DNA from: Nereocystis luetkeana
Taxonomy: Eukaryota; Sar; Phaeophyceae; Laminariales; Laminariaceae
Assembly: GCA_031213475.1 (NCBI GenBank)
Contig: JARUPZ010000026.1
Span: forward strand, 1,752,501 to 1,816,500
Direction: 5' to 3'
Length of the DNA stretch: 64,000 bases
The notes below the pieces were generated by a model. The model saw only the letters and a list, made by a program, of their open reading frames with translations, did no database searches and was not told the DNA's origin. Position 1 is the first letter of the stretch. Each line of letters opens with the position of its first letter. Position numbers and translations under genes: made by a program. Below are positions 2,505 to 48,000 of the stretch, one piece after another.

Positions 2505-3422
2505 TTAGAGCTATATGGGTAACGTTGATACGGTGCGTTTGGCACGTCTTCTCGCAACAGCAGCAGCCTCCTTCTTTTCAGCGCGCGCGTCGGTCTGGCA
2601 CTGCTCAGCAGTATGGTGGGATTCCATCCTTGCAAGTCTTTCCGATCGAGCAGCAACTCTAAAATTGGTTGTTGTCGTGTCGCGCGGGGTATGGCGTCTT
2701 CCCAAAGCAAAGACATCTAGTTGAGGTAACGCAGAAGCACCGCTACTGGTGATATCCGGTTGCGATACGCCGAAGAGCCGAGTAGATGCCCGCGAAACGC
2801 GGTCAGCTCCGTACGTGCACGAAATGGCGCTGTCGGTGGTGGGACCTTGGCGGCATTGATGTCGTGAACCGCCATAGGCACGATAAGAAGAGTTGGTAGA
2901 ACGAGACCAACGACGCCTATTCTCATATGTGGCTCGTGTGATGGCTTGTTCTATGTTGCTTGGCGCTGTTGTGGGGGTACTGTTGTGGAGGTATGATCGC
3001 GAAGGAATAATGGCCCCGGACCTTGCTCGACCTCAAGAACTGCTGCTGCTGCTTTGCTGCTGTTGCTGGAGATCAGGAGGCGACCCTACCCTAAAACGCC
3101 ACAGAATATATCGCACACCCCATGAGATCAAGACCTTGCAGTCAGAAGCGACCACTTCAGCTGTTTGCAAGGGGTGAGCAACGACCTCACTAGCGCTGTT
3201 GGACATCCCGCTGAGCGACCCAGGCACCTACTTGGTGATATCCCTTTTGTTACGACCGACGCGCTGTAGCCAATTTGCGAAATATTTCAGTGCTCGTACC
3301 GACTCTGGTACAAGCGATCGTCTGCAAGCGAAAAGCCCGTGGGCGGGGCTGGGACGCGTAGCTCAAGACACAGGGTTCCATTGAATCCGACCGTTGGCCC
3401 AGACTGCGGTATGCACGTCAAC
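2505..3422. other. No supported gene
   Basis: Short open frames only. A small gctgctgct-type run lies at about 3038-3070. I see no gene or RNA here. Confidence 0.5.
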
Positions 3423-3512
3423 GTCGGCGGCGGTTTGGGATCAGATTTTGCGAGGGTTGGAGTTTTCTGCGTCGGCGGCGGTTTGGGATCAGATTTTTCG
3501 AGGGTTGGAGTT
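3423..3512. repeat. Two-copy 48 bp tandem duplication
   Basis: The segment beginning gtcggcggcggtttgggatc at 3423 is repeated at 3471 with few differences. No coding role is evident. Confidence 0.85.
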
Positions 3513-3727
3513 TCCTTTTGAGAGGGGACAGACGGACAGACAAGTTCGGAATTTCCTCAACAGAACCCCTACGTAAACCTAGGGAATACGTTTCTCACGT
3601 GAAACGTAACATAGTGAGTAGAGTATACCCATGAAATACAGCAATCCAGTGAACATCCGCCATGAGTACCCGCGACAAGCATCGGCATTTTAAACGTTGA
3701 GTTGTATTTCCGATAATAGTGTGGATC

Positions 3728-4048
3728 TCATACCCCTTGAACAATGCCCACCAGAAGACCAACTGGCCTGGTATGATCATCGTCAACAAGAAATGTGCGG
3801 AAGAAGGCGTATTTAAGTGTCCCAAGAAGGCGTGCAACGACTAGCCGAGGGGAAGGAGGCTCTTGTGCTACAGGGGCACCGTCAAAGGCAAGGGCGGGCA
3901 TAGCCCCCGTTCGCCCTGCGGACGTTCCTGAAGTGAACACAACTTCCAGCATCTCCAAATAAACGCTCCCGGGTCCACAAGCCCACGCGCGGCTACCGCA
4001 CGTGGCCGCGACAAAGTGGACCATCCAACTCCATATTTGTAAGTACAC
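3728..4048 (-). CDS. Hypothetical 106-residue open frame
   Basis: A minus-strand frame of 106 residues, moderately hydrophobic with Cys and Trp near its start, no signal peptide I can support and no motif I recognise. An overlapping frame at 3868-4149 shares the region. The ordinary composition over 100 codons is the only reason to list it. It could be a remnant exon or chance. Its neighbours are tandem repeats, so context does not help. Confidence 0.15.
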   Translation of the reverse strand: MYLQIWSWMVHFVAATCGSRAWACGPGSVYLEMLEVVFTSGTSAGRTGAMPALAFDGAPVAQEPPSPRLVVARLLGTLKYAFFRTFLVDDDHTRPVGLLVGIVQGV

Positions 4049-4694
4049 AAGAGAGTCTTCAAGGAGGTACTAAAATATAAAACCACAAGAGGAAGTGGGG
4101 CAAACACGATACCCGTAAAGGTCGTGTCAAGAGTTCGGTCAGTTGTCAAGATCGTGGGAAATGGAAACCACCGGTTGTGTAGAATACTCTTGGATCACCC
4201 ACCTACCTGACTAGCACCGCGAAGGTGATCTTGCAACTCAGCAGCTTCCCCTTTACATAGCAAACACCTAACGGTGCTTGTCGATTCCCAGAAAAGAAGC
4301 GGGCGGCCACAAAGCATTGTCGAGTGGAGTCTGAGGCCGTGTGTAGGTGGTATACAACACACACCACAACGTCGGCGTTGAGAGGGAGTAGTGTGATTCC
4401 GCAATGACGTCCATGTTTCATAAAAGTCGTAACACCTTCTATGTGCCGACTACCAACATACCCACCACCCTCCTGCGGCGTGACTCCTGACCCTCAAGGG
4501 GGGAAATCCGTAGCCATCGAATGAAACCAAATATGCACCCGTGGAAAATACCTCGGCTATGCAGTACGACAACACAATGTGCGGCGCCTGCGATCGACTA
4601 CTGCACTGCCCAGAAATAACTCTACGCTACTTCTTAGTTTGCGAGCCGCAATGAACCAAACGAACGTGACCCCGAACAGACGACTCTCCACCGC

Positions 4695-5095
4695 AGGTGT
4701 TAACTATTATAGCGGCCAATACTTCGTCATGTTTCGAAGAGTATCAGGCCCAGAGCTTGTAACAAGACTGAGTCTCAACAGCGGTAAGCAACACCGTGTC
4801 GGTCGTGCGTCAACCGTGATTTTTATCGCACACAGTGGTACCATCTCCACAGCGCACCGACTCAAATTGCGAGTATTATAATTATTATGGCGGTCAATAC
4901 TTCGGCAAGTTTCCATGAGTATCAATATCAGAGCTTGTAGCGAGGCTGCATCTCCACAGCAAGCAACACCGTGTCGGTCTTGCGACGGCATGTTTCCGTC
5001 GCATACAGCAGTACTGCCTCCACCGACTCAAAGTATACCACCTGTAGTGGCCATTACCTCGACATGTTTCCATGAGTATTATGCCCAGAACTTGT
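4695..5095. repeat. Tandem repeat, period about 165-185 bp, 2.3 copies
   Basis: The phrases caatacttcg..atgtttc, agtatca..cagagcttgta and agcaacaccgtgtcggtc recur in the same order starting near 4703 and 4885, with a partial third copy near 5045. The copies have diverged visibly, so the duplication is not recent. Confidence 0.75.
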
Positions 5096-6499
5096 ACTTG
5101 CCTTCTCGGTCGCATTTTCGCGTACATCAGCGATCCCTCGAGGCCGAGCAGACAAACGCCCGGATAAACCAACGACCATTCAATCGGTCGTGCTCACAGC
5201 GGACGCCTTTCCCCCCCCCCTTTTTTTGAAAGAAGAAAAAAAAGGGAACTGACTGCTGTACACAGCAGTACACAGGCGTCCTGGGACCTCCCCAGGCTTA
5301 CCTGGGTAGTCTGGGGTGTATTTTGTGGGATGTGCGCATAGATCAATATGATTTTTGTTTTTGTTTGTTTGTCTCTCTCTCGTACACTGGCGCGCCCGTT
5401 GTCTCCACAACACGTCCTCCCTCTGCTGCCTTCAGGAATGTATCATAGCGTGTTTTCGATGTGCATGTATGCACCTCCAGACAAAGACCCGCGTCGCGCT
5501 GCCTCCCACCCGTGCAGCCACGTCTATGCTCATGCTCTAGTGTGAGCGGGTGCCCCAACCCGTACGGGTTCTTTCTTCTCTAAACGGGCCGCCTCCTGTT
5601 ACTGGGACGCGGTCGCCGCTCCCACTCATCGCCTCTTCGCGTATTGTTAGGTAGCACCTTTTCGTCAGTCAACAACCACTACACATGACATGCCGTGTTG
5701 TTGTTTTTTCTGGAACTCGCTGAATCCAGTCCTCGCAGCAGATCCCCCCCTGATCACCAAAGTCGTGTCAGCTCGCCCCAGCCCTCAGTTCGTGGTCCCA
5801 GCCGGGCCAGAGTAGAGACGGGAAGGAAAACAAAAGAAGGCACAACTTCCTGGCTTGAATCGACAAACCAGCGACTACCTCACGTCTGCCCGTGCTCGTC
5901 ACAGGACCTCGTGCTTGCTCGTGCCCGGCGTGGGGGTGCTGACCTACGCTCGATGCCTTGCTTGCAAGGACTGCGTTCGAGGCCTTCCCTTCCAAACCAA
6001 ACTTGCTCTATCCCAGTTCCCGGTAGAGACATGCCATATTCTCTCTACCAATAAGCCCTGCTTTGTCCGTTACTTCGTTTGCGGAGGCCGTTACTTCGTC
6101 TACGGACAAAACTACCCGTGAACCTGCACGGACGAATCAGAAACAATCAAGGTGAAACGGTTGTGATACGGCTAGCCCCGGCCGGCTCCGACATGTCGTG
6201 TAGGGCAGAGGCTTACTGCGTGTCCGAAGCTTCTGCAAAATACGAAAAAAAGACGCTCTATGTTCTCGTGTAAAACCTAGAGCAAGTAGGTCACATTCCG
6301 GGGAGCAGACGAAACCACCAAGCGGAGTTGTCCTTGTAGAACAGTCCACGACCTCTTCATTTTCAAGAAAACCGCAATACCGGCGTGCTTGACATGTGTG
6401 GAAGGTGTGGCTTCCCTATGATAGAGGCTGTAAACAACCCCTCTCTAGTTGTCTACGCCGAGTCAAACCAGAAGCGTATCTTGCCCACTTCGACAAAGT
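5096..6499. other. Unassigned stretch downstream of the EsV-1-7 gene
   Basis: It holds a C-run/T-run/A-run block (about 5208-5245), a short acagcagtac palindrome after it, and several short overlapping plus-strand frames, the longest 119 residues at 5695-6054. None shows a domain or an exon structure I can support. As the EsV-1-7 gene is on the minus strand, its 3' untranslated region would lie here. Confidence 0.4.
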
Positions 6500-9190
6500 C
6501 TAAAACAAGCACTCCGCTTTTACAAGGAACGAGGAGCTTCTCAAAGTACGGTTTGACATTGCAGAAGAAGCTGGCATACCGCGAAACCTCCCTCCAGAGT
6601 CGATGCAAACGAGCCCGTCCTCAAGTGGCCCGTGATGCGCGCAATGGGTTGGTTGCTTCCCGTCTATGCCCCAGCTCGACCATGTCCTGCAACCCGCAAG
6701 TTTGCAACGCGCCATGAAATTGATCACCGGTCTCCCCGATATGTCGCCCTTATGGTAGCCGCAAACAGTGGCAACACCGTCAGTCAGTGAACCCCAGCTT
6801 GATCGCCTGATACAGGACTTATGAGAGCAATGTCTGTTCACTACATCTACGGTCTGCCGGCGCTCGACGTCCGATCCCTGCTTCTTGGTGCTGGGTTCAG
6901 GAGAGCGTCGTCGTTTACGGATATTCACTACGCATTTGTTGGCGTGTTGCTTGCAGTGCTTCGCTGTTTCGCAGTCCTCGACACCGGAAATCGCAATGTT
7001 CGTGCTGGTGTCTTGCGATGAAAGCTTGCTGAGGGCATCCACCATGCCGTCCTCAGCGTGTTGCTTGCAGTACACCGATGTAAATTTACCCTGGACATTG
7101 TGTCTCGGTTGCTTCGTGCAAGGGTTGTGTAAGCAACGCCTGCTGACGACATTCACCATCCCGTGCGTGGCGTGTTGCTTGCAGTAATTCCCCCGCTTGC
7201 AGCCCTCAGTATTGAACTTGGCAATCGTCGTGCAATCGTCGTGCAAGCAACGCCTCCCAAGGACATAAACCATGCCGTACTCAGCGTGGTGTTTGCAGTA
7301 CGATGCTGTCTTGCTACCCTCGACATTAAAGCTCGGTATCTTCGTACAAGCGTCGTGTAAGCAACGCTTGCTGACGACATTAACCATGCCATCCTTGGCG
7401 TGTTGTTTGCAGTACGCTGGAGTCTTGCGACCCTCGGTATTGAAACTCGGAGTTTTCGCGCAGGCGTCATGCAAGCAACGCTTGGTGCGGACGTCCACCA
7501 TGCCATCCTCAGCGTGTTGCTTGCAGTGTGACGCTGTCTTGCCCTGGGCATTGAAGCTGGGCTGCTTGGTGCAGGAATGATGTGAGCAACCCCTGCTGAG
7601 TACATCGACCATGCCGTCCATGGCGTGCTGCTTGCAATACTCCGCATTCTTGACGCCGTACATGTTAAAGCCCGCTCGTCTCGTGCAGGAATGATGTGAG
7701 CAATGGTTATTTGTGACGTTTGCCATATTTTCTCGAGAATGTTGCTTGCCGTACTCCGCCGTCTTACTGTCTGTAGTTTTGACGGTCGATATTTTCGTGC
7801 AGGAGTCGTAAGAACGACGCTTGCTGAGGACGTTCACCATGCCATCCTTGGCATGTTTCTTGCAGTACGCTGCTGTCTTGTTACCCTCGACATTGAAGCT
7901 CGGTATCTTCGTGCAGGCGTCGTGCAAGCAACGCTTGCTGACGACATTAATCATGCCATCCTTGGCATGTTGCTTGCAGTACGCTGGGGTCTTGCGACCC
8001 TCGGTATTGAAACTCGGAGTTTTCGTGCAGGCGTCATGCAAGCAACGCTTGGTGCGGACGTCCACCATGCCGTCCTCAGCGTGTTGCTTGCAGTGTGACG
8101 CTGTCTTGCCCTGGACATTGAAGCTGGGCTGCTTCGTGCAGGAAACATGTGAGCAACGCCTGCTGAGGACATCGACCATACCGTTCATAGCGTGCTGCTT
8201 GCAATACTCCGCTTTCTTGACGCCGTACATGTTAAAGCCCGCTCGCCTCGTGCAGGAATGATGTGAGCAACGCTTGCTGAGGACATCGACCATGCCGTCC
8301 ATAGCGTGCTGCTTGCAATACGCCGCTTTCTTGACGCCGTACATGTTAGAGCCCGCTCGCCTCGTGCAGGGATGACGTGAGCGATGACTATTGGTGACGG
8401 TTGCCATGTTTTCTAGAGCATGTTGCTTGCCGTATTCCGCCGTCTTACTGCCCTCAGCATCGAAGGTCGGTCTTGCCGTGCAGGAATCATAAGAACAACG
8501 CTTGCTGAGGACGCTCACCATGCCATCCTCGGCATGTTGCTTGCAGTACGCTGGGGTCTTGCTACCCTCGGTATTGAAGCTCGGTCTCCTCGTGCACGTA
8601 TCATGTGAACAACGCCTGGTATGCACGTCAATTATGCCGTTCTCTATATGTTGCTTGAATTTATTCGACCCCTTGCTGCCCTTGAACTTGAACGTTGGTA
8701 TCCTCGTGCAGGACTCACGCGAGCAAAGCGTTTCAACAACGTTAATCATGCCGTCCTCAGCATGTTGCTTGCAATACGCTGCGGTCTTGCTGCCTTCGAA
8801 GTTTAAGGTCGGTATTCGTGCGCAGGCGTCATACGCGCAACGCCCGGGAACGGCATTCACCATGCCGTCCACAGCGTGTTGTTTGCAGTACTGCGCCCGC
8901 TTGCTACCCTCGACATTGAATTTTGGACGTTTAGTGCAAGATTCGCATCCACAACGACTTCTAACGACGTTCACCATGCCGTCCTTAGCATCTTGCTTGC
9001 AGTACTCCCCCCTCTGACCGCCCTCGACGTTGAAGCTTGCAATTGTCGTGCATGAGTCGTGCGAGCAGCGCTGGTGGACAACGTTCACCATGCCGTCCTC
9101 AGCATGTTGCTTGCAATACGCTGCCTTCTTGCTGCCTTCGATGTTGAAGGTCGGGGTCTTCGCGCATGAGCCATACGAGCAGCGTCTCAT
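6500..9190 (-). CDS. EsV-1-7 repeat protein, about 23 units, 896 residues
   Basis: The protein is a nearly uninterrupted row of units of 38 (sometimes 37) residues fitting C-x4-C-x16-C-x2-H-x12, the EsV-1-7 motif. That family includes Ectocarpus IMMEDIATE UPRIGHT and gene 7 of the phaeovirus EsV-1; a metal-binding role is presumed, not proven. About 19 units are clear, two near the C-terminus are degenerate and the last two are divergent (Trp-containing). Some units have lost a ligand: unit 5 has Phe and units 7 and 13 Gly for the third Cys, unit 2 has Asp for His, and units 8 and 13 lack the first Cys. Units 9-12 and 14-17 are near copies in the same order, so a block was duplicated. There is no signal peptide or membrane span. 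The ATG lies two residues before the first Cys; an acceptor-like ccacag just upstream (complement of 9220-9225) leaves room for a further 5' exon. There are no stops in the frame, so it looks functional. I read it as a host family member, not a virus copy. Confidence 0.88.
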   Translation of the reverse strand: MRRCSYGSCAKTPTFNIEGSKKAAYCKQHAEDGMVNVVHQRCSHDSCTTIASFNVEGGQRGEYCKQDAKDGMVNVVRSRCGCESCTKRPKFNVEGSKRAQYCKQHAVDGMVNAVPGRCAYDACARIPTLNFEGSKTAAYCKQHAEDGMINVVETLCSRESCTRIPTFKFKGSKGSNKFKQHIENGIIDVHTRRCSHDTCTRRPSFNTEGSKTPAYCKQHAEDGMVSVLSKRCSYDSCTARPTFDAEGSKTAEYGKQHALENMATVTNSHRSRHPCTRRAGSNMYGVKKAAYCKQHAMDGMVDVLSKRCSHHSCTRRAGFNMYGVKKAEYCKQHAMNGMVDVLSRRCSHVSCTKQPSFNVQGKTASHCKQHAEDGMVDVRTKRCLHDACTKTPSFNTEGRKTPAYCKQHAKDGMINVVSKRCLHDACTKIPSFNVEGNKTAAYCKKHAKDGMVNVLSKRRSYDSCTKISTVKTTDSKTAEYGKQHSRENMANVTNNHCSHHSCTRRAGFNMYGVKNAEYCKQHAMDGMVDVLSRGCSHHSCTKQPSFNAQGKTASHCKQHAEDGMVDVRTKRCLHDACAKTPSFNTEGRKTPAYCKQHAKDGMVNVVSKRCLHDACTKIPSFNVEGSKTASYCKHHAEYGMVYVLGRRCLHDDCTTIAKFNTEGCKRGNYCKQHATHGMVNVVSRRCLHNPCTKQPRHNVQGKFTSVYCKQHAEDGMVDALSKLSSQDTSTNIAISGVEDCETAKHCKQHANKCVVNIRKRRRSPEPSTKKQGSDVERRQTVDVVNRHCSHKSCIRRSSWGSLTDGVATVCGYHKGDISGRPVINFMARCKLAGCRTWSSWGIDGKQPTHCAHHGPLEDGLVCIDSGGRFRGMPASSAMSNRTLRSSSFLVKAECLF

Positions 9191-9436
9191 TTTAGCGGAG
9201 GCTTGAGGCAGGGATGTACCTGTGGCACATCAGAGGGGGGGTTCAACACGACAAGTAGTCTTAATAAATTGCTGTGCTTAGCTGCCGTTTGTTGAACGAA
9301 CAATCCCTACCGATCCATTCACGAGTTTGCGTACGTTTCTATTTGCCCGGTACTGTACAGCAAAGCAGCGCAAGCGATATCCGTTCTCGTGCTCCTCCCG
9401 AGTGTACTGCATATAAATATATGATAATATTAATAT

Positions 9437-10560
9437 ATATAGAACTACATACTTAGATCACAACCCCTGAGCGTGCTCGGTTGGTGCATCCCTGGCCTCT
9501 CAGAGCTCCCACTTCCAAACCGCCTCCTTTCATTACTTGCCGGACCTTTCCAGCAGTTCTTTCTTTTCTCGGTCCTTTCTTCTTTTTTTCTTCTTTCGTT
9601 TTGTGTGCGTGCGTGTTCTCCGAGCACGGCATCGCTGGAGGACCCGGCACCGTCGCGGGTGTCAGCGGGTGCTGGCGGGTAAAGGGGGGGTTGCAAGGAG
9701 CTCGGTCGCCGCTTTCGTGCCTAGGCGTCGCGTGTGCCTCGAGACACGAGGGATGCATGAACGGGCTTTGTCTGGCTTCGATTTATGATTGTTGATAGAG
9801 TATGTACGAGTTATGAAGGTCGTTCGGGAGGGCTAGATAATTATTCAAGCGGTGCTTATTTTTGCGACCACGCTAAAGTTGAAGCAGGGAGGTGGGCAGT
9901 TTGAACACCAACGTTATCGACCTGGCGAACGACGGCCACGGTGAGCACCGGGCTTCACGCGAGGCGGGCGACGGGGCTGATTGTGGCAGAGGGTCATAAA
10001 AGCTTTACCCGGACCGAATCGGTAGCGAGGTGGTCGCGATAGGGCGGGCGGCGTACGAGGCTGAGAGAGAAGCTCTTCCGTGCGATTGTTTCTTTTCTTC
10101 TTTTCAAGCGGGTGTAAGGTGTTCCAATCAGGCAGAAAAGTATTCCACGAGAGGGGACGGGGATTTTTTTTGCCTTTCCGAGTTTTCGGTTTCATTTTCA
10201 TTGTTTTTGCTGCTGCGCCGTGCTGTGCTTTCGCTTTCTTCGTGCATACAGTACAGACATAGAGCATATCGAAAGAAGAAAATAAGTACAGACAGTAGTA
10301 CCCTACCTGGGGTATGTACGTACGTACGACATCCGCGACGCGAAGCGTATATGTGGCATCCAAGCTGACGTTGGAGCTGTTTTTTCCTGAAGCATGGCGG
10401 CGGGACTCTTGGCATTATCAAGTCGCCGGTTTGCAATTACGATCCTTGAAAAAACTAAACTCAATCGTGGACCTCTGCTCGCTTTGCATAATTTGATGTA
10501 TTTTTTTCCTTCCTGAGCGAGCGTAAGCGGGCGGCGTAGGCGAAGCGCCTTGTATATGTA
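9437..10560. repeat. Dispersed repeat, copy A (about 1.1 kb)
   Basis: Nearly the whole segment recurs in the same orientation at 49798-51541. Shared landmarks in order are gaactacatact, the pyrimidine-rich ttcttctttcgttt, gacacgaggg, gcggtgcttatttttgcgac, acggccacggtgagcaccgg, agctttacccggaccgaatc, gtacgtacgtacgacatccg and the end ttccttcctgagcgagcgta. Short frames on both strands resemble each other between copies only because the DNA is alike. No terminal inverted repeats or coding domain seen, so the class is unknown. Confidence 0.85.
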
Positions 10561-10740
10561 TACGTATATTTGTCAAATTTGCCTTTGTTTTCGCACATAT
10601 CTCTTCGTACGCGCACTTTTGGCCCAAAACGCCAAGTGAGTCGACTCATCTCGTTCGTGCGGTCACCGTGGTCGCGGTTTGGGCGCGATCCGCGCAGTGT
10701 GTCGCGCGTGGCAAGCCCTTTAAACTTTTTTGGCCGCGGG

Positions 10741-10893
10741 CATGGATAAGACAAATCCCCGGGGTTTGACATATTTTCGTTCTGGTTCTGGTTCTAGTTC
10801 TGTTTTTTTTATTCGGCGGTGGCGGATAAGACAAATCCCCGGGGTTTCACATATTTACGTTCTGGTTCTAGTTCTGTTTTTTTTATACGTACG
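10741..10893. repeat. Two-copy direct repeat upstream of the zinc-finger gene
   Basis: ggataagacaaatccccggg followed by tttgttctggttct-type text appears at about 10743 and again near 10826, each ending in a T-run. The block lies 250-400 bases upstream of the start codon at 11144, so it may be in or near the promoter. Confidence 0.8.
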
Positions 10894-11029
10894 TAAGTGT
10901 TTCCCCTGGGTTTCTGCGTGCGGCGTTCACCTTGAGGATGACATCTTCGTCAAGCGCCAAAAGTTGGAGTGCACGCGCCCCCACGTAAGCCCCACCCCAC
11001 AAAAACAAAGCCCCGAGACAAGTTCGACG

Positions 11030-11143
11030 CCACATCGCCGGAGACAGCTTCGACACGCTACACCCTCCGCGACAACTTCGACGCAGTCAACGACCGACAC
11101 GCTACACCATCCCTAACAACTTCGACGCAGTCAACGACCGACC
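11030..11143 (+). repeat. Tandem repeats abutting the zinc-finger gene start codon
   Basis: The phrase aacttcgacgcagtcaacga followed by ccgacacgctacacc recurs with a period of about 46 bases. Two good copies and a partial one end directly at the ATG at 11144 (cgaccgaccATG), and degenerate copies (gttcgacgcc, gcttcgacacgctacacc) lie before them. The repeats probably form the 5' untranslated region or core promoter. Confidence 0.8.
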
Positions 11144-14100
11144 ATGGCCGAAGCTGTTGTTGGTGAAGCCCCAGGTACACCTAGAGACAACAGGAGCAGT
11201 ACCCCCTTGGCCGAGGACTGTCCTCGGTGCGGCATCCAGCTAATCCTGCTGGAGAGCAACCACCCGAACCGGGCGGACTACCCGGGCTGTGCGGGGTATC
11301 CGGAGAGCTGTGCATGGACTGGGTTGAAGCTAATCTGGTCCAAGGCTTGCAGCTTTTGCTGCGAGGAGATGCCGGCGAAGACAATCTGCTGGACGCGGAA
11401 ACTCGAAGGTGAGCTGTTTGCAATTTCATACCAGTATGTTTTTCGTTTTCTGTGCCCGTGCTCTTACAACTGCTGTGCTCCGTATGAGCGTGCTCCGTAT
11501 GCGCCTCAGCCAGGGTGTGTGTCTAAAAAGTTAACGCTGCCGTGTGCTTCTGTAACTCGTGCATGTGCGTGCGTGTGCGTGCGTGTGCGTGCGTGCATAC
11601 CTACATGTACTGTCGTCGTGTCGTTGTGCTGTCGCTGTGTCGTGTCGTTAGTGTCGTGTCGTTATGCTGTCTGTAGTGCTTCAAGGCGCCGTTTTTGCGC
11701 TCTTTTGTGCAGTAAATGTAAAGATCGTGCGACATTGCAAATTAGTACAAATACGGTTCTTATATTTTCGGTCGATCGATCGTGAAGTTTTTTTTCGGTT
11801 TTTGACAGCAGTACTACAGCAGCAGTACATTTTTGCACCATCCATATTTTTTTCGTTTTCTGTGCCCGTGCTCTTACAACTGCTGTGCTCCGTATGAGCG
11901 TGCTCCGTATGCGTGTGCGTGCGTGCATACCTACATGTACTGTCGTCGTGTCGTTGTGCTGTCGCTGTGTCGTGTCGTTAGTGTCGTGTCGTTATGCTGT
12001 CTGTAGTGCTTCAAGGCGCCGTTTTTGCGCTCTTTTGTTCAGTAAATGTAAAGATCGTGCGACATTGCAAATTAGTACAAATACGGTTCTTATATTTTCG
12101 GTCGATCGATCGTGAAGTTTTTTTTCGGTTTTTGACAGCAGTACTACAGCAGCAGCCAGGGTATAAGTTTTCCCGGGTTCAACTGTGTGCCTGTATACCT
12201 CGCAGAGGGTGTTATGCTGTCGCTGTCGTGTCGTTATGCTGTCGCTGTGTGTCGCGTGTTCACATGGCTGCCTGTCCTTCGTGTCGTATATGCTGACTGT
12301 CGTTGTGTGGTCCCAGCAGTTCTCATATCTTCGGATCCTTTCTTTCTGATGCTTTTCCGGATTTGTTTCGCAGGCAAATTTTCCTCCACCGGAAGGGCGC
12401 TTTCCGCGAACTTCCACCTCCACGAGGCTGACTGTGTGACCAAGACCGAAGACGAAACACCAGTCAACGCGAGGAAGCCCTCCACCAGCGACGTGAGTTG
12501 GGTTTCCCTTACTGTATTAATATTAGTAGTATATATCATCGTGTATTTTTTTGCCATATATTTGTCCGATATTGTTTTCGACATTTGTCCGATATATTCC
12601 GATAATTTTCAAGTTTTGGTCCAATATTATTTCCGATATTGTTTTTTTCGATATTTGTCCGGTTTTTGTCCGATATTGTTTCCGATATCGATATTTGTGC
12701 AATATTTTATCCGATATATGTTTCGCTATTTTTGCCGATATTTGTCCGATAATATTGTTTCGATATTTATTTGTGCAATATTTTATCCGATATATGTTTC
12801 GCTATTTTTGCCGATATTTGTCCAATAATTTTCCCGATATTTTTGTCGATATTGACTGATTTTTTCCGATATTGTTTCTGTTATATATTTTGCGATACCA
12901 TTTTCAGCAAATTAACTAATGGTAGGGAATTCCCATTTTACAACAAGCATAGAGCACAGGCGTCTAACATTCAAATACACGTCCCATTTTACAACAAGCA
13001 TAGCATAGCACAGCACAGCCGTCTAACAATTAAATACACGTGGGGTTTTTTTGTTCATGTACCCCTGTCTGATCGTGTGATTGTACGATATTTTCCCGAT
13101 GTTTGTTTCGATATTTGCATTTTTTCGATATTTTCCCCGATATTTGGCCAATCTTTTTCCGATAATTCCCCGATATTTGTTTCGATATTTTTTTCAGCAA
13201 ATTACCCTTCGTAGGGAAGTCCCGTTTTATCGCAAGCATCGCACACCTGTTGCTTTGTTTAATTTAGCATATGATAGCACAACACAGCAGCAGCGGAATC
13301 ATCCCTCAAACTATCGAAGCACACAAGAAAAATATTTTATTCAGCTAATTCCCTATCGTAGGTAAGTCCCGTCTTACCACAAGCGCAGCACAGCACAGCC
13401 CTCTAACAGTAGTCGTATAATCGTGAAATATTTTATCCGATATATGTTTCGCTATTTTTGCCGATATTTGTCCGATAATTTTCCCGATATTTTTGCCGAT
13501 ATTAGACTGATTCTTTCCGATATTGTTTCTGTTATATATTTCGCGATACCATTTTCAGCAAATTAACTAATGGTAGGGAATTCCCATTTTACAACAAGCA
13601 TAGAGCACAGGCGTCTAACATTCAAATACACGTCCCATTTTACAACAAGCATTTTCCTTTTTTCGCACGGCACGGCGAGACAAGCATATCACCCCTCAAG
13701 GTGCTACCCGACCACCATATCTGGTCCAGTATTATTGTTGTGCAATATCTGTTTCCGATGTTTTATGCCCGGCATAAGGTGTTATTTTGCTGTTTTTTTG
13801 CTCAAATACACAAAACACACGCAACTTTTATAGCAACAGCAGTAGTAGCAATCACATCTCTTTGTATGCGCATTCTTAGCTCGAGTTTTTTCAACAAGCA
13901 CAGCACAGCAGCGAAATCATCCCTCAAATCATCAAAGCACAGAAGAGAAATCAGCCCTCAAAGCACCAAAGCACATGTACTACAGTAAGTGCTGCCCATA
14001 TATGTTTCCGATATTTTGTGCCGACATAAGCGTGCCCGACATAAGGCGACAAAAATACGCCACTTTTAGAGCAACAGCAGTTGTAGCATTGTTTTCATTT

Positions 14101-14794
14101 TTTCGCACGGCACGGCGCGACAAGCATATCACCCCTCAAGGTGCTACCCGACCACCATATCTGGTCCAGTATTATTGTTGTGCAATATCTGTTTCCGATG
14201 TTTTATGCCCGGCATAAGGTGTTATTTTGCTGTTATTTTGCTCAAATACACAAAACACACGCAACTTTTATAGCAACAGCAGTAGTAGCAATCACATCTC
14301 TTTGTATGCGCATTCTTAGCTCGAGCGCCACAGTTATGTTGGAAGCGCGGTCACCGTAGTAGCGGTTTGGGCGCGGTCCGTGTGTACTACAACCTATCTG
14401 TCCCATTGTTTTCGTTTGTATGATACTTTACAATTATCCCTCAAGTGCATATCGGCCAGATTTCTGAAACTCGCTTCGCCTCCGCCACTCCCTTCTATAT
14501 TATTGCCGCCTGTTACAGATTGGCACAAGGTGCCAAGACTGCCTCCGTGACGAGGACAGCGCCTTTATCGCTGAAGGCGACCATCTCGTGGCGTCGTGCA
14601 TCAAGCCGTGGCACGTCGGGTGTGCTCTCAAGCGCCGCCGGTTGATGGTGGAGGAGATTACCACGGAAGCGGACTTGCGTGCAACGGAAAACAGCGCCCA
14701 GAGGTCTCGGAACAGCGCCTCTAGCCGGAACTCTACCCAGTCCAAGCGCGCCCGCGAGGGCCTCGCCAGGGGCGAGCAACTGGACCTTTCTTAG
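11144..14794 (+). CDS. Three-exon gene: small protein with three zinc-binding modules (two PARP-finger-like)
   Basis: Exons 11144-11408, 12374-12492 and 14519-14794 join in phase (1, then 0) with GT..AG introns (donors gtgagc and gtgagt, acceptors gcag and acag) into 219 residues ending TAG. Module 1 (C26, C29, C49, C56; GC-x2-YP-x2-CAW) resembles topoisomerase C-terminal or GRF-type fingers. Module 2 (C69, C72, H103 or H105, C109) is split by intron 1. Module 3 (C133, C136, then WH160-x2-C163) fits the PARP-type finger C-x2-C...H-x2-C. The C-terminus (about 180-219) is Ser/Arg/Lys-rich and probably disordered. PARP-type fingers usually bind DNA breaks or nicks, so a nuclear DNA-binding role is inferred. 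No catalytic domain is present. Exons are preserved while both introns are full of repeats. A decayed relative lies at 22.4-25.4 kb. Confidence 0.72.
11439..12160. repeat. About 300 bp direct duplication inside intron 1
   Basis: Text from cgttttctgtgcccgtgctc through tgtcgtgtcgttatgctgtc to ttgacagcagtactacagca occurs at 11444-11826 and again at 11854-12151. The first copy has an extra 75 bases of tgcgtgcgtg-type sequence. The rest is almost identical, so the duplication is recent. Confidence 0.9.
12545..14330. repeat. Intron 2 repeats: CGATATTT-type array plus two long direct duplications
   Basis: Between about 12,550 and 13,560 the motif ccgatatttgtccgata and variants recur dozens of times, in an AT-rich block unlike the GC-rich surroundings. 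A segment starting ccattttcagcaaattaact is present near 12,898 and again near 13,549. A longer segment containing caagcatatcacccctcaag is present at about 13,665-13,885 and 14,098-14,325 with few changes. Open frames rich in Tyr, Phe, Asp and Ile here only reflect the repeat. Confidence 0.85.
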
Positions 14795-14804
14795 GCCCAG
14801 AACA

Positions 14805-15065
14805 TAGAACATTGAAAACATTGAACTCAGAACTTAGAACATTGAGCGTTGCGCAAGCGAGTACGCGAGAAGCAAGCCAGTACGCGAGAAGTATATCTCT
14901 ACAGAGAATAGGAAGGAATTGCCAAGCAGACGAGTGCAGGGAACGCGTGGTTAAAAATAAAATCATACAAGAGACATATCTCTACAGAGAATAGAAAGGA
15001 ATAGAAGGGTATAAAGGAATTGCCATAGGTGACTTCTTCAGGGAACGCTTGGTTAAAGGTTTCAT
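14805..15065. repeat. Short tandem repeats between the zinc-finger gene and the Helitron frame
   Basis: agaacattga and tacgcgagaag are repeated at 14,810-14,890. A roughly 90-base unit (atatctctacagagaatag ... ggaattgccaa ... agggaacgc.tggttaaa) then occurs twice, from about 14,893 and 14,978. This is either the 3' flank of the zinc-finger gene or the 5' end of the Helitron, whose exact left border I could not fix. Confidence 0.6.
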
Positions 15066-15093
15066 AGAAGAGAAAATACAAGAAAAATTTTAA

Positions 15094-15897
15094 GTGATGA
15101 GCAGGCCTACATCGTCACCGGCATCGGGTTTGTCACGTTCTCATCGTCTTGGGGTCCTTCCATTTGGAGACCTTTCTGTCGTCTTGCCCGATCCGCACAG
15201 TGTTCGGTACTTGAACTTGAACAACCCACTCAATAACAAGTGCAAGTTTTGCAATGCCCTCAAATGGAAAGAAGAGAACATAAACTGTTGCAGCAAAGGC
15301 AAGTATGTTGTGCACCCACTCCTTCCTCTTCCTCAAGATATTAAGGATGTTTTTAGCTCGCCTAGTTTCCTGAAACGCCAACGCTCTTATAATGGCACAT
15401 TTGCGATGACAGCCCTTGGAGCATCACCTTCGCCCACTTGGACACAACCCTCATGCCCTAGCATGCTCAAGCTACACGGCAAACCGTATCACCGTGTAAT
15501 GGATAGTTTCCGTGAATCGTACGGAGGCACCGTAGCTAACAACCAAGCAAGAATGTACATCTATGACAATGAGATTCAAACAAACGCCAAACGCTTGAAA
15601 CTAGATGCAGATACTCTCACATACTTGAGCAATCGCATAAAACAAGACAACAAATGGGTCAAACAATATCGTACACTGCTCCTTGAAATCGACCAGAGCG
15701 AACACCACAACCTGTGCATATCATTCGAGGAGACTGCTCGTGTTACACCAACCGCTCGCACTGAAATTGCAGCTTTATTATACAAAGACGATGACCGCAC
15801 ACCTGCCCAAAGGCATGTCTACACATTTCCACGCAGCGGTCCAACTGACGAATGTAGCCAGCCTCGGTTCGTGTCTATCTGGTCCGTGTTATATTAA
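15094..15897 (+). pseudogene. Helitron RepHel part 1: N-terminal domain (267 codons)
   Basis: Opens with ATG at 15094, which I took as the start because it begins the frame just after the repeat block. Residues 50-66 hold CKFCNALKWKEEN..CC, the Cys-rich signature of the Helitron-like N-terminal domain. A block near residues 165-190 with YIYD..IQTNAKR matches the family's conserved segment before Rep. It ends at TAA 15895-15897, and the same frame continues at once with family sequence (FPLLHYFGEPGW), so the stop is a disabling change rather than the natural end. Confidence 0.8.
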
Positions 15898-16833
15898 TCT
15901 CTACAATTCCCACTTTTGCACTATTTTGGCGAGCCAGGTTGGAGCCCAGGATGGTATGGTGACAACAGAAAATCCCGCACACTCTCAACCACTACTGGGA
16001 AACCAGTTCAGATTTTTCAATATTGTCGTCAACGACTCCTGTGCGAGCCCGCTTTCCAAATCCTGTCGACGCTTGCTCAAGAACATGCTTGTGACTCTTA
16101 TGCAAGGCAAGATGATATAGTTATTTCTTATTGCGATAAACAACTTCCAAAGAAACGTATCACAACACTTAACGCTATCAACGACGCTCCCCCAGAGGCT
16201 ACCGTTGGAAAACGCCTCCCAGTCAGTTTTCATGGAGCCCCAGCAAACCGCAAAAGAAAGCAATTGGATGCAATGGCCGTAGTCACACGTATGGGAAAGC
16301 CACACTTGATGGTAACGTTCACAGCAAACCCGAAATGGCCCGAGATAGTAGAAAACTTACACAAAGGTCAAACAGGAATGGATCGCCCAGATTTGGTCAA
16401 CCGTGTTTTCAAAATGAAACTCCGATCTCTATTGGCAGATCTAAAGAACAACCTCTTCGGCAAGATGCATTACATGCTTTATGTTATTGAGTACCAAGGC
16501 CGAGGTTGCGTCCATGCCCACATCATCATAAAATTCGAAGGATCCAGCCCCGAGCAGTTAAAAGAAGTTGACAAATGGATACGGACAAACCTTCCAGATC
16601 CCAAAATTGCAAACGGTGAACTTCGACGAAAAGTCCTCCAGTATATGGTTCATAAGAAGTGTGGTACATTCAACCCTTCGGCACCTTGCATGAAAACAGA
16701 TTCCAAAACCAAAAGAAAATATTGTAAGATGCACTATCCCCAACCTTTTCGCTGTAGCCTCGCTCTCAACGAAGAGTCAGGTCGAGCTGAATACCGCAGA
16801 CTAGACAACGAAGACAACGCCACAATAAAATGA
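15898..16833 (+). pseudogene. Helitron RepHel part 2: HUH Rep nuclease
   Basis: Same frame as part 1. It contains MVTFTANPKWPEI, a hallmark of Helitron Rep, and GCVHAHIIIKF, whose His codons at 16513-16515 and 16519-16521 form the HUH metal site. A Cys/His-rich stretch follows (CGTFNPSAPC, CKMHYPQPF). In the family this domain nicks and rejoins single strands during rolling-circle transposition. A TGA at 16831-16833 interrupts the frame, after which Rep sequence resumes. Confidence 0.85.
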
Positions 16834-18330
16834 AAGAACGGTGAAAACAAGACCGTGGAAACGAACATAGACAATCGATCCATAGTGCCGTACAACCCGT
16901 ACTTGATTATGAAGTACGATTGCCATATTTGCGTCGACATGGTAACGGGACGAGCTGTCATTGCGTACCTCTATAAGTATGCGTATAAGCCTGCCGACTC
17001 TACTCGAGCAAAAATAACGTACAACGGCAACGAAATAGAAGCGTATCGCAGTGTCCGCTACATTTCAAGCTCCGAGGCAATGTGGCATATTTTTGGATTT
17101 AGGTCTCAAGAGCGCGTACCCACCGTCGTTCTACTCTTTGTTCACCTTCAAGGAGAGCAACCAGTTGTGCTAGACGAAGCAGACTCTACGGAGATACAAC
17201 GATCGGTAGCCGCCTCCTCCGTATCAAACTTGATGAAGTACTTCGGACGCCCTCACTACCCACGATTTCACGACTTAACGTACCTACAATACTACGAGCA
17301 ATACATTATTCAACCAAAAGAACGAACATCAAAGCGAGCTCATGCGGGCCATCACGACTCCACCGACGACGAAAACTCAGACGACAACGGCACGTCCACG
17401 AGGCAATGGCGCGATCGCTACCTCAACTTTGTCTATCCCCGGACAAAGCCAGTGGTTGCTCGCCTTCAGTACATGAGCCCTGACCAAGGTGATATATGGT
17501 TTCTACGACTGCTCTTACTTCATGAAGCCTCGACCAGCTGGACGCGTATCCGGACCTTCAATGGCCTTCTCCAAGAAACATTCGAACATGCAGCAAGAGC
17601 TATAGGTCTCGTTCATGGCGTTGAAGAATACACTATATGCCTGCAGGAAGCCATTGAGTTTTCAACCGCCAAAGAATTGCGTCAACTTTTCACAACGCTT
17701 ATTTTGCATGGTGCACCTGCAACAGCCCTATGGGAGATTTTCCAAGACGATCTCGCCGCAGACTTCGCCTCTAATCTTGCACAACCCGCTGCCATTAATG
17801 CTGCCCTAAAGTCCATAGATCTCATGCTTCACAAACATGGCAGAACGACAGATAAATACGGGTTGCCCAAAGTTCACCACGACAACACAGAGTACGACCG
17901 CTTGCTCGGAGCTTTCGACCGACAACAAATGCAAGAGTTGTCCAATCAACTTATCCCCCAACTTACCCAAGAACAGAGAACAGTGTTTGATGCCATTACA
18001 TCCAGCGTCATACAAGAGACAGGGGGTGTATACATGATCGATGCCCCCGCCGGAACCGGAAAAACATTCACTGAAATGACAATCGCTGCATCTCTTAGAG
18101 CCCGTGGTACACTCGTCTTGTGCACCGCATCTACTGGCATAGCAGCATTGATCCTTCCTGGTGGTCTCACAGCTCATTCAACTTTTAAACTTCCCTTCGG
18201 TCCAGCCGCAGTTAGTGGTAGCACGTGCAATATCCAAGCAGAGTCTCAAAGAGCTGACGTGTTGAAACGAGCAGGATTATTAATATGGGCGAATGCCCAA
18301 TGTCAAGCAAATACGCTCCAGAGGCTTTAG
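16834..18330 (+). pseudogene. Helitron RepHel part 3: end of Rep and start of PIF1-like helicase
   Basis: Soon after the TGA comes YLYKYAYK (from 16966), the two-tyrosine motif Y-x3-Y-x2-K that completes the Rep active site. A linker of about 350 residues leads to the helicase, with Walker A APAGTGKTF (about 18,045-18,070) and the ASTGIAA segment typical of PIF1 helicases in Helitrons. The frame leaves family sequence at about 18,290, at the position of the expected DE.P Walker B box. Matching sequence continues one frame over, consistent with a one-base loss. Confidence 0.85.
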
Positions 18331-20012
18331 ATTTAACGCTCAGAGATCTCATGCACAACGACCTCCCTTTCGGTGGTAAAACGATGGTGTTCTCAGGAGA
18401 TTGGCGCCAGTGCGGTCCAATTGTGAAGTTTGGTACTGCTGCAGACGTTGTCGATGAAGCTTTTTTGTCCTCGCATCTCTGGAAACATGTCCAACGTTTC
18501 CGTCTCACAAAGTCAATGAGAGATCGGGGAGACATTCCCTACGCGCAGACTGTACTAGCCGTTGGCGAAGGCGACATTGCACCGATAATGCTTGCCGATG
18601 GGTCTACCGTGATACCTCTCAAGCACACAACAAAGAACCCTGACGGCTCCGAACATACGTGCCAGATCAAGGGTACCACTGACTTCGAAGACCTCATTGA
18701 AGCCGTTTATCCTGATCTTTTGCAGGTAAACCACAACAATTTTGATGACCGTGGCATATTAGCACCCACTAATGACAGCATAGACGAAATCAACGAATTC
18801 GTTCTAGACATGTTGCCAGGAGAAGCCCAGCACGAGAAGAGTTCAGACCGACTCGTCACCGATGACACAGAAAACATGCCGGAGGTCGTGTCCGTAGAAT
18901 ACCTAAACACAGTTACTGTACCAGGCACACCTCCACATGATTTGCAACTTAAAATAGGAGCTTTGGTAATGTTCATCAGGAATATTAATTTTGACAGTGG
19001 CCTCGTTAATGGAAAAAAAGGAGTCGTACGAGGTCTCTCTGCTACTGTCGTTGATGTCGAAGTTATCGCAGAAGGATTTCCAATTGTTAGAATACCCAGA
19101 ATTTGCTTCGAAGTTCAGATTGGCGCCAAAAGAATTACTTTCCATCGTCATCAATTCCCCCTCCGTTTATGCTACGCCATGACAATAAACAAATCGCAGG
19201 GACAAACACTTAAGAAGGTCGGCCTCGATCTCAGAGATGATGTCTTCACACATGGACAATTGTACGTCGCTCTCAGCCGCACCACCTCGCGACAAAACAT
19301 CCTCTGCCTCGTCAAAGAAAATAGGCTCATAGATAACGTCCCCTACGTTGCCAACGTCGTCTTTCGCGAGTTCATTTTGGCTGCAACTGGGAGAGAACCC
19401 TTGCATTTGAATGTTGACCCTTCCGCAAATAATGATAATGCAAAAATAAATGAAAACGACAGCAAAAGCAGTAGCGACAACGACAGCGATAACAACGACA
19501 GCGAAGTTAGCAGCGATGACGACAACAACAACAACAACAACAACAACAACACACACAACACCAACAACCGGTTCGTTGTTAATGAGGTAGGAGACGGTGC
19601 CTGCTTGCTTCGTTGCATCGCTCGCAAAGTGCATGGTGACCCTGAGAAACACTTCGTTACCCGACAGCAAATACTGCAACACATCCGTGATCACCTGCAT
19701 GATCCAATACCCTCATTCGATATGTCATTCGATGAAATTATTTCAGGCGGTATTCAAAACGAATCTGTAGCTGCCAGTGGCCAACCCGACACACTCTATG
19801 ATTCAGTGGGTCACTACCTCAACCTCATGTCCAACGCATATGCTTACGGCACACATATCGAAATTATCGCCGCCAACCATTTGTTCAACATCGACATCAA
19901 CTTAACATATGCAGGTACATCCTATCCAAGCTCGCCCCCCGAACCAAACTCGTGCAATGTCCTGTACGATCCCGTGGCGCAGCACTACAGCACACTCCAG
20001 TACTGCGGTTGA
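18285..20012 (+). pseudogene. Helitron RepHel part 4: rest of PIF1-like helicase and OTU protease
   Basis: The helicase continues from CPMSSKYAPEALDLTLRDL, with FSGDWRQCGPI and, near the end, NKSQGQTLKKVGLDL and YVALSRTTS, the usual PIF1 motifs. A linker very rich in Asn, Ser and Asp (about 19,425-19,560, with an aac codon run) joins it to an OTU-type cysteine protease: VGDGACLLRC gives Asp (GAC 19593-19595) and nucleophile Cys (TGC 19602-19604), and HYSTL near the end supplies His (CAC 19983-19985). The frame is open to TGA at 20010-20012. OTU domains occur in several Helitron lineages; their role in transposition is unknown. Confidence 0.87.
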
Positions 20013-22499: not shown

Positions 22500-24300
22500 T
22501 CAGTTATGCTCTATGCTTCTCTGTTGCTGTTGTTGTTGTTGTTTGTTCCCTGCGTCTACCGCCGCGACTGCTGTTGTTGAGTTTTTTCCACACTACTTGC
22601 CATTTTTGTTTGTATGAATTAGAGAACACGACTTGGTGGCGCAGCCCTTTGCTGCGGCTACTGCTGCTGCTGCTCCTTTTTCTGCGGTTGCAACCCCGCG
22701 CGCCTACCGTCCCTGGTGCTGCTTTTCTCGTTTCAGGTTGGTTTAAGTAGTCGTTGTTCGCGTTGTTGCTGTTGTAGGCACCTTTGAATCAGTGGCTACC
22801 ACCGCTGCTGCTGTTGTTGTCTATGCTGTTGTTGTTGACGTTGTTGCTGTTCTCGCACGTTGTCGACCTCCAGCACTGAATGTACAACCAAGATGTTTTG
22901 GCATTGTTTTTATTACACGAGCTCACACCGAGATATGGGTATAGTACGCGTACGCGCTGCTGCTGCCGCTGCTGCTGCCGTTGTTCTGTACAGCCTGCGT
23001 TCCTTTCCACACCGACACAGGTGTCTACCTTCGTTGTTGCTGTTGTTGTTTGCCTGGTATGCTGTTGGTCGTGGTGTTGTTGCTGTTCCCGCACGTAGTC
23101 GACCTTTAGCACTAAATCCAAGCCAAAAAACGTACTAATTTCCATAATGCCATTTGTATATGCGCTACTGCGCTTACTGCCATTTGCTTTTGGGATGCTG
23201 CTGCTGCCACTGCTACTGCCGTTGTTTACAGCCAGCGTTCGTTTCCACAACAGTGTCTACCGCCCCTGCTGCTGTTATTGTTCATGCTGCTGTTGTTGGC
23301 GTTGTTGCTGTTCCCGCGGCTGCTGTTGTTGAGTTTTTCCCACACTTGCCATGTTTATTTGTGAAACGACACACGAGTTGGTGGCGCAGCCCACTGCTGC
23401 TGCTGCTGCTGCTGCTCTTTTCCCTGCTACTGTAACCCCGCGGGTCTACCGCCCCTGATGCTGCATTTGTTGTTTATGTAGTCGTCATCGTGTTGCTGTA
23501 GTAGGCCTCTACCGCCGCTGCTGCTGCTGTTGTTGTTTATGCTGTTGTTGTTGGCGTTGTTGCTGTTCCCGCACGCGAGAACACGACTTGGTGGCGCAGC
23601 TCATTGCTGCTGCTGCTGCTGCTGCTCCTTTTCCTGCTGCTGTAACCCCGCGCGCCTGTCGTCCCTGATGCTGATTTTGTTGTGTACGCTGTCGACGTTC
23701 GCGTTGTTGCTGTTGTAGGCAGCTTTGAGTCAGTGTCTGCCGCCGCCGCTGCTGTAGCTGTTGTCTATGCTGTTGTTGTTGGCGTTGTTGCTGTTCCCGC
23801 ACGCGAGAACACGACTTGGTGGCGCAGCTCATTGCTGCTGCTGCTGCTGCTGCTCCTTTTCCTGCTGCTGTAACCCCGCGCGCCTATCGTCCCTGATACT
23901 GATTTTGTTGTGTACGCTGTCGTCGTTCGCGTTGTTGCTGTTGTAGGCAGCTTTGAGTCAGTGTCTGCCGCCGCCGCTGCTGTAGCTGTTGTCTATGCTG
24001 TTGTTGTTGGCGTTGTTGCTGTTCCCGCACGCGAGAACACGACTTGGTGGCGCAGCTCATTGCTGCTGCTGCTGCTGCTGCTGCTCCTTTTCCTGCTGCT
24101 GTAACCCCGCGCGCCTATCGTCCCTGATGCTGATTTTGTTGTGTACGCTGTCGTCGTTCACGTTGTTGCTGTTGTAGGCAGCTTTGAGTCAGTGTCTGCC
24201 GCCGCCGCTGCTGTAGCTGTTGTCTATGTTGTTGTTGGCGTTGTTGCTGTTCCCACATGTTGTCGACCTTCAGCACCAAATACAAGACAAATATACATAA
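22500..24300. repeat. GCT/GTT-rich minisatellite, unit 228-231 bp
   Basis: Between about 23,530 and 24,230 a unit of 228-231 bases occurs three times nearly unchanged. Landmarks are gttcccgcacgcgagaacac, acttggtggcgcagctcatt, a (gct)n run, gtaaccccgcgcgcctatcg and gcagctttgagtcagtgtct. Older divergent units begin near 22,540, 22,620, 23,040 and 23,330. Because the units are near multiples of three and built of gct/gtt codons, Leu/Cys/Ala/Val-rich frames stay open in several registers and on the minus strand. I read these as composition effects. The array would fill the first intron of the decayed zinc-finger gene. Confidence 0.88.
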
Positions 24301-37110: not shown

Positions 37111-37232
37111 CTTTCTCGTCCTGGTGGGGTGGAAAGTCGTTCACAGTTGGTCGAGCAGGATGCGGCAACGTGTGTAGGCATATCTGTGCTGGGTCGTGTT
37201 CAAAATACAAAATCAGAACGTTTTTTTTGTGC

Positions 37233-37455
37233 CTGCCAACAGCAGGCAGACTGTGCCTGTCCACAGCATGCACACTGTGCCTGTCCACAGCATGCACTGT
37301 GCCTGCCCACAGCAGGCAGATTATGCCTGTCCACAGCAGGCAAACTATGCCTATCCACAGCAGGCGGACTGTGCCTATCCCCAGCAGGAAGATTGAGCCT
37401 GTCCACAGCACTCTACAGCAGGCAGACTGGGCCTGTCCACAGCAGGCAGAGAGAC
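37233..37455. repeat. Minisatellite of about 24-27 bp (CTGTCCACAGCAGGCAGA-type)
   Basis: About nine units of the form gcctgtccacagcaggcaga-ctgt run head to tail, with variants gcatgc and ccaca. Each unit holds the near-palindrome tgcc..acagcaggca. A partial unit recurs near 37,540-37,565 (gcctgtctgtccacagcaac). Both strands read as Cys/Pro/Gln or His/Ser/Cys-rich frames, which I treat as artefacts. Confidence 0.9.
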
Positions 37456-47960: not shown

Positions 47961-48000
47961 CAGCAGCAGGGACAGGTGGAAGGTTTGAGCATTGTTCGCA

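Follow-up and report, generated by a model that had tools for sequence, protein, structure and literature searches.

A 23-unit, probably algal EsV-1-7 array with traces of block duplication and module decay

Introduction

According to excerpts of the published accounts, the EsV-1-7 family is expanded in brown algae, with 90 members in one Ectocarpus, and has a viral namesake (PMC12993054, PMC7457493, PMC12629598); one member is a developmental regulator whose function is described as unknown (PMC7457493), and the family has been hypothesized to consist of zinc finger transcription factors (PMC12629598). An excerpt on the Ectocarpus Tc1/mariner transposase TcMar-2_Ec32 places an EsV-1-7 domain at its N terminus; there the domain sits on a transposase, whereas at the locus described here the array stands alone (PMC12477816).

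The Pfam family PF19114, represented by Ectocarpus IMMEDIATE UPRIGHT and the EsV-1 gene EsV-1-7, has tandem C-x4-C-x16-C-x2-H units joined by linkers of ~12 residues, and the gene that we analyzed is built in the same way. What may set it apart within the family is its count of 23 units, of which seven are damaged, together with a divergent terminal pair. Arrays in viral-type contigs (L001, L011, and L012/L032) share both the unit and the ~38-residue period with the algal array; those of L011 and L032, unlike the algal one, are ligand complete and end in a tentatively nuclease-like domain.

Results

The array gene and its surroundings

The 64-kb window, which is the whole stretch of DNA that we analyzed, contains a single array gene:

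6500..9190, minus strand: EsV-1-7 array protein gene, an uninterrupted frame of 896 codons plus stop

The preliminary description had read this frame as an EsV-1-7 protein of about 23 units, and its family identity, coordinates, strand, and size all held up: PF19114 (EsV_1_7_cys) matched the protein with an E value of 2.9e-228 and 737.7 bits against a Pfam cut-off of 25, and the unit count was 23. By sequence, the gene is an ordinary EsV-1-7 family member in kind. The minus-strand frame is open from stop to stop over 6500-9229, with its first ATG, at 9188-9190, giving a product of 896 aa; since the frame remains open to 9229, an upstream exon is possible. The protein (~99 kDa, pI 9.3) is basic, with 143 K+R against 78 D+E, and contains 65 Cys and 51 His residues. 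At the DNA level, a 114-bp repeat was detected by TRF (19 copies) and by a direct-repeat search.

No further EsV-1-7 units were found above threshold in the window (next best E=0.38), and no C2H2 zinc finger profile was present among the three Pfam matches of the array protein at E<=0.01. Several matches outside the family were set aside as sums over the repeats, since no single stretch passes alone: PF12815 (CTD, Spt5 repeat; 44.6 bits against a cut-off of 25.4), PF12214 (18.7 bits, under its cut-off), PHROGs 26987 (E=1.4e-11), 3926 ("replication initiation protein," 4.5e-4), and 7902, and two NCBIfam models. The two frames overlapping the array gene had no Pfam match, a bacterial promoter scan stayed at the chance level, and phage and plasmid records gave no match at E<=1e-3.

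Eighteen inverted pairs of 20 to 26 nt were listed in 3000-16000, one of which flanks the array gene; this pair (5228-5253/9572-9597, 81%) was rejected as transposon ends because it is a simple purine/pyrimidine-rich stretch. Elsewhere, the window holds a Helitron-type element at 15898-20012, whose three frames carry Helitron_like_N, PIF1 helicase, and OTU protease domains, a frame with a reverse transcriptase domain at 46507-48018 on the minus strand, and a 228-bp tandem repeat at 23508-24254 (3.3 copies, 96%). A tRNA-His called by ARAGORN at 37277-37365 is probably false; it lies inside a tandem array (37228-37410), and there is no Rfam tRNA at the gathering score.

Relatives in viral-type and probably mis-binned contigs

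The IMG/VR contig L001 carries an EsV-1-7 gene of seven units that is cut short by the contig edge and adjoins Rpb2. By eye, the Rpb2-type frame (L001:1544-4006, minus strand) seems to contain an intein-like insertion. Among peptide-pattern relatives from the viral and prokaryote collections, only L001's contig was confirmed, whether the comparison used the window protein, an alignment of the units, or the L001 protein. A pattern scan of a prokaryote genome collection (84,980 species) yielded two contigs labeled as bacterial bins:

L011:1407-2966, minus strand: array protein of 519 aa (TTG start as listed), six regular and two divergent units
L032:4519-6495, plus strand: array frame (L012/L032) of 659 codons, 10 regular and two divergent units

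All 20 units of these two arrays (8 and 12 units, respectively) keep the four ligands. The L011 contig was binned as Terriglobia and the L032 contig as Planctomycetota, but both are probably mis-binned and of giant-virus type or eukaryotic, since the C-terminal domain described below was sought in 294 genomes sampled from its phylum, with no more than 11 candidates scored in each, and the one genome that had it was the source. Mis-binning is less certain for L011, whose neighbors match only peptidase M16 and a partial dehydrogenase, than for L032, whose contig also has ankyrin repeats and a DNA polymerase B described as "organellar and viral." A frame next to the L032 array (L032:3216-3956) appears by eye to hold a different short Cys/His repeat and has no Pfam match.

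After the terminal pair, L011 and L032 share a C-terminal region of 184 to 185 residues that is 34% identical between them and in which RPDF, E-x-DE-x-QH, R, and GLP...R-x-NPD are invariant. Searches of Pfam, PHROGs, PADLOC, and the PDB yielded no meaningful hit for it, the L032 copy had no match in the phage collection, and no relative turned up when the viral contigs were scanned with both domain sequences; the fusion has been seen in these two contigs only. An E-x-D-x2-QH core of this sort is common to the DUF559/Vsr kind of PD-(D/E)XK enzymes. An hhalign comparison with six DUF559 sequences gave a weak match (probability, 18.9; E=0.0012 for a single comparison) spanning 38 columns over this core, while the highest probability among 30 shuffled controls was 5.0. 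We therefore tentatively regard the domain as nuclease-like. A motif search for its core in six-frame open reading frames of the window found nothing, although a diverged nuclease exon could escape such a search.

Units and their ligand states

The algal array consists of 20 regular units followed by unit 21, a deleted remnant, and by the divergent units 22 and 23. The regular units follow C-x4-C-x16-C-x2-H-x12 and are 38 residues long, two of them being 37. The units that depart from this plan are listed after the regular array; all lie on the minus strand.

6911..9184, minus strand: regular units 1-20, 114 bp each, with units 10 and 15 of 111 bp
8957..9070, minus strand: unit 2, ligand His to Asp
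8615..8728, minus strand: unit 5, C3 to F
8387..8500, minus strand: unit 7, C3 to G
8159..8386, minus strand: units 8 and 9, a single-unit duplication, 92% identical, in the first block copy only; unit 8 has C1 to Arg
7706..7819, minus strand: unit 13, C3 to G as in unit 7, plus C1 to R
6836..7024, minus strand: units 20 and 21; unit 20 has C1 and C2 to Ser, and unit 21 is a 25-residue in-frame remnant without ligands
6602..6835, minus strand: units 22 and 23, divergent, terminal, ligand complete, both with SSWG

Sixteen of the 23 units (14 of the 20 regular ones plus units 22 and 23) keep the full C/C/C/H set, and at least one ligand is missing from the other seven (units 2, 5, 7, 8, 13, 20, and 21). 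Two details read earlier from the array were confirmed: units 10 and 15 are each one residue shorter, and units 7 and 13 have in common both the Cys-to-Gly change at C3 and an ENMA.VTN ending. The shorter unit is in itself ordinary, since this loop is also gapped in five of the seven L001 units.

Conservation extends beyond the ligands. N14, G17, K25, and A28 are invariant in the 14 ligand-complete regular units though their codons vary, and M32 is present in all 14 of these units and in all seven L001 units. Per-position variability is correlated between the 14 algal and the seven L001 units (Spearman coefficient, 0.56 for all 38 positions and 0.42, p=0.013, with the ligands omitted), pointing to one common unit architecture.

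The terminal units are C-x4-C-x16-C-x2-H (unit 22) and C-x4-C-x15-C-x2-H (unit 23). Their derivation from a viral-type terminal pair was considered, with divided results: alignment scores spoke for it with L011, at 86 where the runner-up pair reached 71, and not with L012, at 63 where two other pairs reached 64. A viral terminal-pair profile gave units 22-23 a score of 20.0 and many regular algal pairs higher scores, up to 52.1; an internal-unit profile gave units 22-23 16.5, below their terminal-pair score.

Block duplication and the chimeric unit 12

We compared the DNA of units 1-20 in an identity matrix and a unit tree, both of which omitted units 21-23. Identities were high between units 9 and 14 (94%), 10 and 15 (95%), and 11 and 16 (96%), with 92% between 8 and 9; lower values were obtained for units 6 and 12 (85%), 12 and 17 (82%), and 7 and 13 (80%). 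The tree returned the same partners, joining 7 with 13 (100), 11 with 16 (99), 10 with 15 (99), and 8 with the pair 9 and 14 (100; 79 for 9 and 14 alone), in line with the pairing described before. The following features emerged:

8501..8614, minus strand: unit 6, parent type for the 3' part of chimeric unit 12
7872..8552, minus strand: first block copy, comprising the 3' part of unit 6, units 7-11, and the 5' part of unit 12; ends approximate
7820..7933, minus strand: unit 12, the chimeric junction, unit-17-like to base ~61 and unit-6-like from ~64
7305..7871, minus strand: second block copy, comprising the 3' part of unit 12, units 13-16, and the 5' part of unit 17; ~567 bp, ends approximate

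The duplicated step is thus five units, or 567 bp, and the first copy carries one extra unit (8 or 9). Growth by duplication of multi-unit blocks of the 114-bp repeat, as proposed in the preliminary description, is supported by the unit identities and by the chimera analysis below. The same account had taken units 9-12 as copied to 14-17; the duplication stands, and its limits have to be redrawn, since the block spans five units and unit 12 is its chimeric junction.

When unit 12 was compared with units 6 and 17, 25 of the 28 informative sites fit a single breakpoint (permutation p=4e-4), and the mosaic makeup accounts for the reduced identity of unit 12 to both. A mosaic scan of the 20 regular units also found the largest gain in unit 12 (codon-shuffle p=0.008); units 10, 15, and 17 gave p values of 0.024, 0.006, and 0.012, uncorrected for the 20 tests, that of unit 15 being below that of unit 12. 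Chimeric unit 12 is the product that one unequal crossover would be expected to leave: if unit 17 of one chromatid paired with unit 6 of the other, the product would have the order 6-7-(8/9)-10-11-[17/6]-13-14-15-16-17. A five-unit step of this kind would mean that the Cys-to-Gly loss in units 7 and 13 was most simply inherited, in which case it would predate the block copying. The algal array shows this crossover trace in its own DNA; the L011 array also has a block repeat, of two units that are 88% identical.

Selection on intact units and decay of ligand-less ones

Between units 9-12 and 14-17, dN/dS was 0.20, and nonsynonymous and synonymous change differed significantly between units 9-11 and 14-16 (Fisher p=0.004). 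Purifying selection has therefore acted on units 9-11 and 14-16, the recent intact copies. Nonsynonymous change was significantly greater between units 7 and 13 (16 of 89 sites) than between 9-11 and 14-16 (9 of 270.5 sites; p=2e-5), while synonymous change did not differ significantly (7 of 25 against 9 of 68.5 sites; p=0.12). We attribute the greater divergence of units 7 and 13 to faster decay after the ligand had already been lost; alternatively, later homogenization of units 9-11 with 14-16 may have produced the unequal divergence.

For the 14 regular units with all ligands, dN/dS over their whole tree was 0.40. A per-position codon count, from which the ligand-less units were omitted, gave no case for positive selection at the variable loop positions: none of the 38 positions had a significant nonsynonymous excess, and the lowest p was 0.24. 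Private codon changes (nonsynonymous, synonymous) numbered 6 and 0 in unit 8, 2 and 1 in unit 9, and 1 and 3 in unit 14.

With the ligand codons omitted, the six ligand-less units among the 20 regular ones had a higher dN (Mann-Whitney p=0.006); their dN/dS was not significantly higher (p=0.16), and these comparisons treat the units as independent, though they are related. The faster amino acid change is more in keeping with decay than with a changed mode of metal binding, so that of the two suggestions made earlier, that ligand losses were tolerated or that they altered metal binding, the former is supported and the latter is not. Ligand loss also sets the algal array apart from its complete relatives, with 7 of 23 units affected against 0 of 20 in L011 and L032 (Fisher p=0.01). 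A second Fisher test was run without L001 unit 1, which has a short first loop (0 of 26); with that unit, the count is 1 of 27.

Discussion

Our preferred reading, which we put at roughly 55%, is that the gene belongs to a eukaryotic chromosome, most likely that of a brown alga, and encodes a multi-module zinc-type nucleic-acid-binding protein that grew by unequal crossing-over and whose spare modules decay. Each intact unit would fold around one metal ion via C-x4-C-x16-C-x2-H, and the basic chain, with ~16 intact modules, would lie along DNA (or RNA). Unequal crossing-over between the 114-bp units would have lengthened the array, one five-unit step leaving chimeric unit 12; decay of spare modules would then be tolerated, and one module that had already decayed (7/13) would have been copied together with its neighbors.

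We infer both metal binding and nucleic-acid binding by the array. The latter is suggested by the transposase and nuclease-like fusions, the basic charge, and the printed hypothesis of zinc finger transcription factors (PMC12629598, in excerpt), and DNA is the best guess because of the nuclease-like fusion in the relatives together with the published fusion of EsV-1-7 to a transposase. Counted against this reading are the results that no solved structure matched the array and that Pfam recognized no enzymatic partner domain in the window protein. Two AlphaFold models were poor (mean pLDDT, 41.8 and 52.6).

A protein-binding scaffold or metal buffer, whose modules fold on zinc and bind proteins or hold metal rather than nucleic acid, is possible but rather unlikely. 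The wealth of Cys and His (65 and 51 in 896 aa) would suit such a role, as would a window protein without a catalytic or established DNA-binding domain, but the relatives fuse the array to a nuclease-like domain, a transposase is reported to carry the EsV-1-7 domain (PMC12477816), and the conservation of non-ligand residues such as M32 exceeds the needs of metal storage. That the gene is a decaying pseudogene, open by chance, we consider improbable: 896 codons run without a stop or frameshift, unit lengths change in frame, and purifying selection is seen between recent copies, even though the ligand damage in 7 of 23 units against 0 of 20 in two complete relatives (p=0.01) and the deletion of most of one unit lean that way. 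Similarly low odds attach to an endogenous giant-virus insertion in place of a resident host gene. While a viral relative of seven units exists beside Rpb2 and no intron was seen in the frame, viral core genes were absent among the 30 of 55 frames of at least 150 aa that were scanned with Pfam; the six with matches were the array gene, three Helitron frames, a reverse transcriptase, and an importin-type repeat. Finally, repeats of this size can be misassembled, but an assembly expansion is very improbable here, since the block copies are not identical (94, 95, and 96% for 9/14, 10/15, and 11/16; 80% for 7/13) and the junction unit is a mosaic such as a real crossover leaves.

Beyond the preferred reading of a nucleic-acid-binding array, one could speculate, doubtful as this is, that EsV-1-7 arrays form, in eukaryotes and giant viruses, a class of modular, length-adjustable DNA binders that would aim a nuclease in giant viruses and the transposase of a transposon, and that the expanded nuclease-free copies in algal genomes would be retargeted by block gain through unequal crossing-over and by module death.

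The new lead from this analysis is the nuclease-like fusion in the relatives, and the window gene is a case of unusually readable array growth in a known family. An EsV-1-7 nuclease fusion is not mentioned in the excerpted text of five papers (PMC12993054, PMC7457493, PMC12629598, PMC12477816, PMC6368402) or among the titles listed; the literature searched omits most subscription papers, so that novelty is unproven. That viral-type contigs join such arrays to a nuclease-like domain hints, in a way open to testing, at DNA binding by the repeat. The DNA of the window gene displays both the lengthening of an array, through one readable crossover, and the decay of modules with the reading frame kept, and because growth and decay can be read in this way, the relation of module content to function would be testable by comparison of strains.
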